NCBI GenBank assembly: GCA_021790385.1
Contig: JAJYDW010000001.1
Location: forward strand, 1 to 64,000
Origin: Planctomycetota bacterium
GTDB lineage: Bacteria; Planctomycetota; Phycisphaerae; WQYP01
Reading direction: 5' to 3'
DNA length: 64,000 nucleotides
Below the pieces are notes generated by a model. The model was not told the origin of the DNA. It searched no databases and saw only the letters and a list, made by a program, of their open reading frames with translations. The position numbers and the translations under genes are program-made. Shown here piece after piece: positions 49,308 to 51,904 of the stretch. The first letter of the stretch is position 1. Each line of letters opens with the position of its first letter.

Positions 49308-49790
49308 AAAACCTTATCCTTGCAGTAAGAGTTCACCAACGCTGCGTGATATTGTAGGCACCAGATTGGTTAAAACCAAACTGATGGGTTTTTCAACCGC
49401 TGGCTACGGTGTGGCGAGAAATTGTGGCGAGGGAATCGGGAGTTCGGCGGTTAAACACCAGGATGCGAAATGGCGCGGGTGGCGTCCCGCCGACGCGACG
49501 ATGAGCATTAGACTTTATAGAACGTTTCTTGTCCATTATTTTCAACATACAAGAAACGAAGACCCAATGAAGCGTGCAGCGATCAGCGGTCAGCCATCAG
49601 GAAATGGTTTTTCACCGCAAAGGTCGTCCCATGACCGAATATTGTTATAGGCAACCGGGATAAACTCCGAAACGCGGAGGACGATTGAATTGAACCACAC
49701 GGGACGCAAAGGTCCACAAAGGATGGGGCGCGGGTTGGTTTGGCACGGTGGGCTGGGTTTTTGATAACATAATGGGCATGTTCATAGTTG
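49308..49790. other. Intergenic region with dispersed-repeat pieces
   Basis: About 480 bases with no gene. It contains CAGCGATCAGCGGTCAGCCATCAG (part of a dispersed motif, about 49578-49600) and GAACCACACGGGACGCAAAGGTCCACAAAGG (about 49691-49720). Both are of the kind that recur between genes in repeat-rich bacterial genomes. Open frames here are short and without ribosome sites. Confidence 0.45.
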
Positions 49791-49966
49791 CGGAAGGTAG
49801 TTCGGCCAGCGGGTGGCGGCGGATAAGACCGCATGGTGGAAGCGGAGGCTCGCCGTTTGCGGCCAATGATCCGGTAACGGGGTTGTATTATGAGCGGGCA
49901 CGGTGGTATTCCGCGAGTGCGGCTGGGTGGCGATGTTGCCGCGGTTGGAGCGAATGGAGATTCGCG
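49791..49966 (+). pseudogene. Remnant of an Rhs-type repeat core
   Basis: The frame containing GGSPFAANDPVTGLYYERAR WYSAS matches the strongly conserved C-terminal core of Rhs/YD-repeat proteins (DP.TGLYY.RAR.Y...LGR). Upstream the rest of the Rhs protein is missing. Just after WYSAS the expected LGRW continues in a different frame (RLGGD...). It is a 3' scrap of an Rhs gene at the point where variable toxin tips normally begin, and membrane-protein genes follow immediately. Confidence 0.55.
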
Positions 49967-50275
49967 GTGATTGGAAAAGAAATAATTCGGCGGCGATGGA
50001 CTGACTTTTTCTGGGCATATTTGGCAGCAGCACCGCTGCTGGGGCGGGTGGTTTGTCTGCTGCCCGTCGGATCCACCGGCCGCCAGATTGCTGGCATCGC
50101 TTGGTGGGCGTTGTTGGTACCTGCGGTATTGTTTTTGATGCTTCGGATGAGGTTGGATACGCGCCGGGCCGGCAGGTTGGAAAAGCCAGCACCGCCGCGT
50201 GGTGATGTGGAAGATTTGCCCTGGGTGCTCGCCCTTTTGGTCTGCCCAACGCAGCGTTGTGGTGTCTTGTCATGA
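49967..50275 (+). CDS. Small two-helix membrane protein next to the Rhs remnant
   Basis: The 102-residue protein starts with GTG at 49967 (GGAG seven bases upstream). It has a basic N-terminus (IGKEIIRRRW) and two likely transmembrane helices (DFFWAYLAAAPLLGRVVCLLP; IAGIAWWALLVPAVLFLMLRM), then a polar tail. Its stop overlaps the next ATG (ATGA at 50272-50275), a sign of translational coupling. No family recognised. Its place after an Rhs core remnant would suit an immunity protein (inference). Confidence 0.5.
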   Translation: MIGKEIIRRRWTDFFWAYLAAAPLLGRVVCLLPVGSTGRQIAGIAWWALLVPAVLFLMLRMRLDTRRAGRLEKPAPPRGDVEDLPWVLALLVCPTQRCGVLS

Positions 50276-50922
50276 CGCTGCATCCACTGCCGGTGCTGAA
50301 AACTTGGTATTATCTGTCGGCGCTTGTTTAAGTGGTTGTGGCGTTCCCACCTGGCTTGGCCGGCGCTGCGGCCCTGTTGGCAAGGACCCGTGGAGCGGCG
50401 AGAATCGGTCGTGTTAGCTTTCTTTACTGGCTGCTGGCCGTTTCTGGCATATCGGCCGTCCCAGCATCACTTGTGGCCCTTAGCGGCGGGCTGGCGTTGG
50501 GGCTGCTGCCCGACAGGCAATGGCTTGCGGGCTTGGTTCCGCTCTGGTGCGCCACCGGAATTATGTTGCCGGTCGGATTGCGTAACGTTAGCAGGCTTTT
50601 GCGGCTGGCGCGGCGCTAGCCATTGTGGGGGCCAGAGCGCTCGCCGAGCGGTGTTGTCGGCGAGTGTCTGTGGGTTCTTTGTGCCTTCGGGCTTCTTTGC
50701 GGTCCTTTGCTATCGCTCGGCTTTGCGTTGCCTCGGTTCGGGGATGCCGTTATTGTACTGTGCCTTGCGGCGACGGTGTGCGTCCCAATCGGACTGTTGT
50801 TGTTGGCCTGGCGGGAGGCTCGCGCCGGCGGTCGGTTGTTGGCTTACCTGCCCGCCCGCCTCGCGGTCGAGGGCCTGCTGATATCCTGGTGCACGTTCCT
50901 CCTATACGTGCTTTTCTACTAA
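50272..50922 (+). pseudogene. Multi-helix membrane protein gene interrupted by two in-frame stops
   Basis: One frame runs from the ATG at 50272 to the TAA at 50920-50922 and encodes about six hydrophobic helices. It is broken by TAA at 50329-50331, inside the first helix (YYLSALV-stop-VVVAFPPGLAG), and by TAG at 50617-50619 (LLRLARR-stop-PLWGPERS). Restarts are possible at GTG 50332 and TTG 50623. Helices include FLYWLLAVSGISAVPASLVAL, LVPLWCATGIMLPVGL, LWVLCAFGLLCGPLLSLGF and IVLCLAATVCVPIGLLLLAW. Either it is a nonsense pseudogene or three short proteins. Recoding is possible but unsupported. Confidence 0.5.
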
Positions 50923-51127
50923 GCGCAGACGCTCTCTGCCGTTTTTGTTTTCGTCCAGTAAACCCGTGCTACCATAACCGCGCCGGGAACCGGTGTTGAT
51001 GGTAACGTGCAGCGGATTGAGACTGCTTATAACCATCAGAGCCTGGCTTTTCTGTTAACCAACTGTGATCCTGCCCCTGCCGCAACAATCATCAGTGAAA
51101 ATACCGCGCGGCCTTTCTTGAATCTCT

Positions 51128-51904
51128 TCAGCGGTGCTGGTGAGCGTTGATGTGGTTAAGGCAATAGCACAAAGCCCCCGTACATCTGGTGCAATAGCGG
51201 AATTCCGTCTGGGGGTGGCTGCGGTCGGTAATACCGCACAAAGTGCACCGGTGCGTGATGGGTTGGGCCGCTGCGGCAGCGGCCTTGCGTGCCATGTGGT
51301 GATGGCCGTGGCGAATACGTTGCCAGATTTCCCTGCGAAAAAACAGTAAAAAATTCAGAACCGCAGCCAGAATCAGCACCCGTGTCATCCATGCACCCTT
51401 CATGAACAGCAGAATATAAATGCCCCAGGTTACCCAGGCCAGGTATTTCACGCGCACGGGCAGCACAAAAAACAGATAAAAAAGAAAATCCGGATAGATA
51501 AAGGCAAAAGCCAGAAAGGTAGACCCGTAGAGAAATCCGTTGCCGGCAACGCCATAGGGAACGATAAAGGCCGCCGCGGCTGTAGCTACGTATCCAATCA
51601 GCAAAAACAGATTATATCGCGGAGCGCCCCAGGTATTTTCCAGGGCAGTACCGATCAGCCAGAACACATAAATATCCAGCAGCAGCCACAGCGGGTGCAG
51701 TGACATCGGAATGAATAGAAAGGTTAAAAGCCGCCACCATTGCCCCGCCAGCACTGCGGATGGAATCAACACCAGAGCATCAACAACTCGCGGATCGCTG
51801 TAATGCAGAGCGAACATCAGCAGTTGCCCGCCGATCAACCACAGGGTCAGTCGCGGAATGGCCATGCGGGCCAGATTATTTTTAATTTGCCGTGTCAGCC
51901 ACAT
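51128..51904 (-). CDS. Rhomboid-like membrane protein with C-terminal Cys motif
   Basis: The 258-residue protein has six or so transmembrane helices in rhomboid style (LTLWLIGGQLLMFAL; QWWRLLTFLFIPMSLHPLWLLLDIYVFWLIG; TWGAPRYNLFLLIGYV). QWWRLLTFLF and the loop LENTWG are rhomboid marks. The catalytic GxSG is absent (GNGFLYGSTFLAFAF stands in its place), so it is probably not a protease of the usual kind. After residue 200 come a His-rich linker (HGHHH) and a putative zinc motif CTLCGITDR...YCTRCTGALCYC. It could act as a Derlin-like or quality-control protein (inference). Confidence 0.75.
   Translation of the reverse strand: MWLTRQIKNNLARMAIPRLTLWLIGGQLLMFALHYSDPRVVDALVLIPSAVLAGQWWRLLTFLFIPMSLHPLWLLLDIYVFWLIGTALENTWGAPRYNLFLLIGYVATAAAAFIVPYGVAGNGFLYGSTFLAFAFIYPDFLFYLFFVLPVRVKYLAWVTWGIYILLFMKGAWMTRVLILAAVLNFLLFFRREIWQRIRHGHHHMARKAAAAAAQPITHRCTLCGITDRSHPQTEFRYCTRCTGALCYCLNHINAHQHR

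Follow-up and report, generated by a model that had tools for sequence, protein, structure and literature searches.

In enterobacteria, displaced tip and immunity modules known as orphan rhs-CT/rhsI and cdiA-CT/cdiI retain some of the core, occur in arrays and are viewed as reservoirs; in the available portions of the papers that describe them, most of these orphan tips are without signals for the initiation of translation (PMC3150448, PMC3967940). In Salmonella, the accessible part of one report describes Rhs tips that are expressed internally, from promoters near the core end that lie within the rhs reading frame (PMC7043789). Caspase-like domains (Tox-Caspase) are a known class of C-terminal polymorphic-toxin tips with a His and a Cys, and the available text pairs them with the immunity proteins Imm36 and Imm57, which it describes as alpha+beta and mostly alpha, respectively, rather than as membrane proteins (PMC3482391).

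Here we describe a locus whose components are of this already known kind. It lies in a stretch of 64,000 nucleotides, G000:C105:1-64000 (the window), from a genome of 3.6 Mb assembled into 106 contigs. We consider it very likely that the locus is what decay has left of one or two Rhs polymorphic-toxin modules, the toxin having been lost. As far as the available text of those papers goes, it resembles an orphan rhs-CT/rhsI or cdiA-CT/cdiI module after decay. Its intact relatives, unlike most enterobacterial orphans as described there, have an ATG and a common leader and, within the genus, usually a -10-like box.

The original prediction placed a conserved Rhs core end in this patch, and the core end is present: DPVTGLYYERARWYSAS at 49868-49918 on the forward strand, which breaks off after WYSAS and lacks the subsequent core residues. 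DNA from 49780-49970 matched five further sites in the genome with E-values of 2e-24 to 5e-8, which are not those of chance. A 54-residue core query found 16 places in the genome, 15 besides the window scrap with its core-end motif DPVTGLYYERARWYS (49868-49912); the original prediction had called for a search for Rhs genes with the same core, and they do exist elsewhere in the genome. At least 14 matches to the curated Rhs_assc_core model were found in the source genome, and a related gene on contig C25 matched this model at 52.2 bits (cut-off 32.5). The frame of the window scrap itself (P0001) gave no match in NCBIfam, the scrap being too short for the curated model.

Ahead of the core lies a degenerate copy of an orphan leader, MFIVAEGSSASGWRRIRPHGGSGGSPFAAN, at 49778-49867 (forward strand), with its ATG at 49778. 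The 30 residues before the core correspond to a leader that recurs in full in six further copies, located in G000, G003 and G004 (E 2e-22 to 1e-16), and leader and core together match these copies at 79% identity over 43 residues (E 6e-18). Just 5' of the leader start, CATAAT (49768-49773, forward strand) forms a putative -10-like box in the position that TATGAT or TAAAAT occupies ahead of related leaders. A perfect inverted repeat, AAGCGGCG-TCT-CGCCGCTT, is visible by eye in the leader DNA of L043, L044, L045 and L046; the corresponding repeat at 49815-49850 of the window copy is, again by eye, degenerate. A mobile repeat as the sole account of the leader is disfavoured, because in the six other full copies the leader, the core and a stretch of tip length share one open frame (138 to 295 residues).

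Further downstream is a scrap of an Rhs gene body that was absent from the original prediction, GVDGNVQRIETAYNHQSLAFLLTN at 50960-51047 (forward strand). Its DNA is 70% identical to the Rhs body on contig C83 over 88 bases and 74% identical to that on C22 over 78 bases, and a protein match extends over 50971-51144 (E 7e-8, or 1e-7 with composition correction). The leader and short core would suit an orphan rhs-CT/rhsI module; the missing tip and the Rhs-body scrap downstream would not. On the same contig, outside the window, a further Rhs core scrap, also decayed, lies at G000:C105:118302-118400 (L021); its open frame contains a TAG.

Hydrophobic reading frames follow immediately after the core (49973-50275, 50332-50619 and 50623-50922). 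The original prediction had seen these membrane-type frames correctly, and had read them as separate modules, the first two coupled by ATGA. That part did not hold, since the ATGA near 50272-50275 falls inside what was one ancestral gene. Judged by colinearity with the intact membrane protein encoded on C83, the three frames are fragments of a single broken gene. Its first hydrophobic frame begins with GTG at 49973 and runs to 50238 (forward strand), with a frame change to the next piece at about 50200-50240; no relative was detected for most of this frame, its first hairpin (49973-50200) included. The remainder, a putative immunity-type gene at 50239-50922 (forward strand), contains an internal TAA at 50329 and TAG at 50617 and ends in a TAA at 50920-50922. 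Positions 50239-50916 are colinear with the 279-residue C83 protein (G000:C83:62262-61426) across the two in-frame stops.

It is hardly credible that these breaks are assembly or sequencing errors in an intact membrane gene. The source genome is fragmented, and the related genomes that can be named are uncultured, metagenome-assembled Planctomycetota, which speaks for such errors; however, about 400 bases contain a frame change and two stops, whereas the genes on either side are open, and the sister species G004 has an even shorter remnant at the corresponding place.

The match to the C83 protein has an E-value of 1e-17 in tblastn without composition correction; with the correction, tblastn kept nothing but its final third (E 5e-9). 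Against shuffles that preserve local composition, the first two thirds reached z 5.8-5.9, the last third 13.8-16.3 and the whole alignment 19.3-19.8, and none of 1000 shuffles reached the alignment score in any section tested. These values bear on the idea that the frames derive from some housekeeping or transporter gene, unrelated to the Rhs scrap and beside it by chance. Hydrophobic proteins do readily align to one another, and weak transporter lines were seen (NCBIfam PRK11021, E 0.031 for the C83 protein), but the similarity to a protein encoded after an Rhs tip withstands the shuffles, the frames are flanked on both sides by Rhs scraps, and no curated family exceeded its cut-off. In the profile search proposed by the original prediction, which had named a housekeeping transporter as the outcome that would count against it, the membrane frames had no convincing match in Pfam or NCBIfam (DUF5516 reached E 0.029, below its cut-off). 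We regard such a chance neighbour as very improbable, and retain the reading of one broken gene related to the C83 membrane gene. A structure prediction for the C83 membrane protein had a pLDDT of 56 and a pTM of 0.33. The idea, formed by eye, that the protein is built of tandem two-helix repeats was mostly unsupported by shuffles; the exceptions were the comparisons of the last window piece with the N part of the C83 protein (z 5.1) and with the second window piece (z 3.2).

The final 157 bases of the last piece are shared with G004:C214. When this piece was searched in 61 genomes at E ≤0.01, it found itself, a 51-residue scrap in G004 (82% identity), the 281-codon ORF of G000:C83 (44%), G003:C99 (E 6e-4) and three marginal matches (E 0.004 to 0.007). 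Over the 51 codons common to G004, the changes number 7, 2 and 14 at the first, second and third codon positions, and 11 codons differ synonymously and 9 non-synonymously. This third-position excess suggests that coding constraint persisted over part of the divergence, a part that would predate the decay.

The same excess could be taken to mean that the last piece (50623-50922) is still made, as a shortened orphan immunity protein against the toxins of relatives. It is open over 99 codons and hydrophobic, the membrane partner in G003:C99 is of similar size (131 residues), and expressed orphan immunity is known from other systems, according to the accessible text of PMC3150448. However, the piece forms the end of a longer gene that is broken further upstream, it would have to start at a TTG, G004 retains only 51 aligned codons, and the piece diverges faster than the adjacent genes. 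We therefore consider continued expression improbable, and a locus without present function is the most likely case.

The C83 membrane gene is the closest relative of the membrane frames outside the locus among 150 genomes, and it lies directly after an Rhs tip: its 281-codon ORF begins where an 838-codon Rhs ORF ends. As a query against the 150 genomes, the C83 membrane protein found itself, the window and G004 alone. The C83 tip recurs in G003:C99 at 49% identity, again with a membrane ORF downstream. The 131-residue product of that ORF is related to the last window piece (E 2e-7 without composition correction), and shows hardly any similarity to the C83 membrane protein in a direct comparison (E 0.049).

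Tips of the C83 type occur at 10 places among the 150 genomes, with a membrane ORF downstream in seven; at two of the other three the contig runs out, and the third (G007:C62, L105) was left out of this comparison. Within the genus, a membrane ORF lies downstream at all five testable loci with a C83-type tip, compared with 33 of 108 other tips, a difference that by our own arithmetic, which ignores relatedness, has a probability of about 0.004. This count includes 113 of 132 ORFs, those with fewer than 130 residues or fewer than 400 bases downstream having been dropped. Neither the C83 tip nor its membrane partner is covered by a Pfam or NCBIfam family. A membrane protein that belongs to no family in these collections is tied to a caspase-like Rhs tip.

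The caspase-like character of the tip itself is predicted. His149 and Cys184 are invariant in eight sequences. The tip model is of middling confidence (pLDDT 70.5), and nearly all of its VIA rows belong to clan CD peptidases, the best with a Z of 8.1 over 137 residues at an rmsd of 3.8. A Foldseek search with the same model returned nothing at E 0.001, and a PDB sequence search with the tips gave no matches. A caspase-like fold is likely and not proven, because the VIA comparison supports it while Foldseek alone gave nothing. As a predicted C-terminal caspase-like domain with a His and a Cys, the C83 tip resembles Tox-Caspase; it differs from Tox-Caspase with Imm36 or Imm57, as the available text of that study describes them, in being followed by a multi-helix membrane ORF.

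In the window, the place that would follow a tip is occupied by the broken relative of the C83 membrane gene, a putative immunity gene. Two caspase-like tips used as queries revealed no tip directly after the core and no tip remnant anywhere in the window, the best lines being those of chance (E 0.26 and above). Because these queries found no tip after the core, we regard the locus as a relic rather than a module, and because no tip remnant is visible, the single link between the relic and a caspase-like tip is its C83 relative. The original prediction of toxin and immunity leftovers is therefore supported overall: the remnant of an immunity-type gene was borne out, and no displaced tip was found in the window with the two tip queries.

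The relic forms an island at about 49405-51125, with no strand assigned, between two blocks that are not adjacent in related genomes, and so marks a rearrangement junction. Matches to the left block stop at 49364 in G002 and 49404 in G003, and matches to the right block start at 51126 in G003, 51128 in G001 and 50766 in G004. The two blocks are on different contigs in G003 and are separated in G002 too. The relic thus fills the junction. G004 retains a shorter remnant at the corresponding place; the relic scraps are 85.4% and 87.1% identical to those of G004, compared with 93.2-95.7% for the adjacent genes. Several observations concern the borders of the relic. Its right edge is marked by a gene for a rhomboid-like membrane protein (51128-51904, reverse strand), relatives of which turned up in 11 of the 31 genomes covered, and the relic-adjacent rhomboid-like gene of G004 (G004:C214:23035-23807, L051) is split over two frames with a TGA between them. 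To the left, the intergenic stretch 49614-49683 matches an intergenic stretch of G000:C100 (71 bases, 76%), and 49724-49756 matches one of G004:C19 (33 bases, 97%).

Present at the junction are the scrap of leader and core, the broken gene related to the C83 membrane gene and the second scrap, from an Rhs body; an intact parallel exists elsewhere in the genome. We propose that the locus probably goes back to a short orphan gene, consisting of leader, Rhs core end and toxin tip, with a membrane immunity gene after it, the latter probably of the family that accompanies the caspase-like tip. In the best supported course of events, this core-tip-immunity module would have arisen or arrived at the locus, and a deletion between core and membrane gene would then have taken out the tip. 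The intact membrane protein may have acted as an immunity protein that let the cell tolerate a caspase-like toxin from its kin or from itself, and its gene would have decayed after the tip was lost. The Rhs repeats may have served as the recombination points at which the two chromosome blocks were joined. An odd patch of the window would thereby be explained as the wreck of a toxin-immunity module, with Rhs scraps at a rearrangement junction.

In five genomes of the genus there are 136 core matches (16, 2, 28, 86 and 4) in 132 distinct ORFs, which are mostly short, and 79 of the 132 have an MVAxNE-like start by pattern. Seven of these starts lie inside Rhs bodies and were dropped, leaving 72 leaders. 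A -10-like box is found within 50 bases upstream of 57 of the 72 (shuffle mean 9.07; ordinary window genes 4 of 37), and upstream of 19 of 26 when one leader is taken from each upstream cluster (shuffle mean 3.0); these counts are not independent events, as the leader copies are related. Outside the genus, where the motif was tried on fresh data, the matches listed include 44 short core ORFs (up to about 400 residues) from other genera of the family, of which eight run off their stretch and were dropped. The motif is present in 31 of the remaining 36, several of which are near copies, and in 2.2% of shuffled N-termini. The -10-like box precedes only 7 of these 31, among the matches listed, so the pattern of the genus is not carried over.

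Ten giant Rhs ORFs were also retrieved, two of which run off their stretch; none of the eight with a visible start has an MVAxNE-like motif in its first 200 residues. Four giant ORFs (L262, L263, L264 and L266; 3192 to 4308 residues) share an N-terminal stretch that ends in motifs like LEALEPRILLS or LEVLEQRIYMS, which we presume may be an export signal.

Codon changes in the leaders were compared as synonymous/non-synonymous single changes, which number 350/263 for type A, 118/90 for type S and 221/503 for type E, a mixed result; with more than twice as many non-synonymous changes, translation of the type E leader is unsupported by this test. Codon variation within the motif is conditioned by the search pattern and was excluded as evidence.

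Two arrangements illustrate where leader-core units occur. L107 (G000:C22:13419-13649) is a unit directly after an Rhs body, in frame up to a stop, where it takes the place of the body's usual continuation; the large ORF downstream looks like a glutamine amidotransferase. L042 is a 4.9-kb contig (G003:C99:1-4894) with three consecutive orphan starts (91, 3080 and 4619), each with an MVAINE-type leader and a core and with differing sequence past the core.

In Salmonella, so far as the accessible part of that report goes, and by prediction here as well, Rhs tips are produced intracellularly, driven by promoters close to the end of the core; the two differ in that the promoters there are internal to rhs, whereas here many separate short genes have a common leader (PMC7043789). 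A search of titles and the beginnings of abstracts found no report of the leader pattern, which is no proof of absence; of what is described here, the pattern has the best chance of being new, and it may be a by-product more novel than the relic itself. We tentatively suggest, at somewhat below an even chance, that the orphan tips of this family are stand-alone mini-genes, each with a start codon, an MVAxNE-like leader, a short core and a tip and, in the genus, a promoter, present in up to dozens per genome and made together with their immunity proteins inside the cell. Delivery would fall to a small number of giant Rhs proteins whose N-terminal regions differ, the leader would serve specifically as a signal for expressing or handling toxins that are not delivered, and the cassettes would mark rearrangement junctions. 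The short core-and-tip genes of the family do have a common start motif that is absent from the giant Rhs genes examined. If these mini-genes are expressed, the enterobacterial view, in which orphan tips are reservoirs that mostly go untranslated, would fail here.
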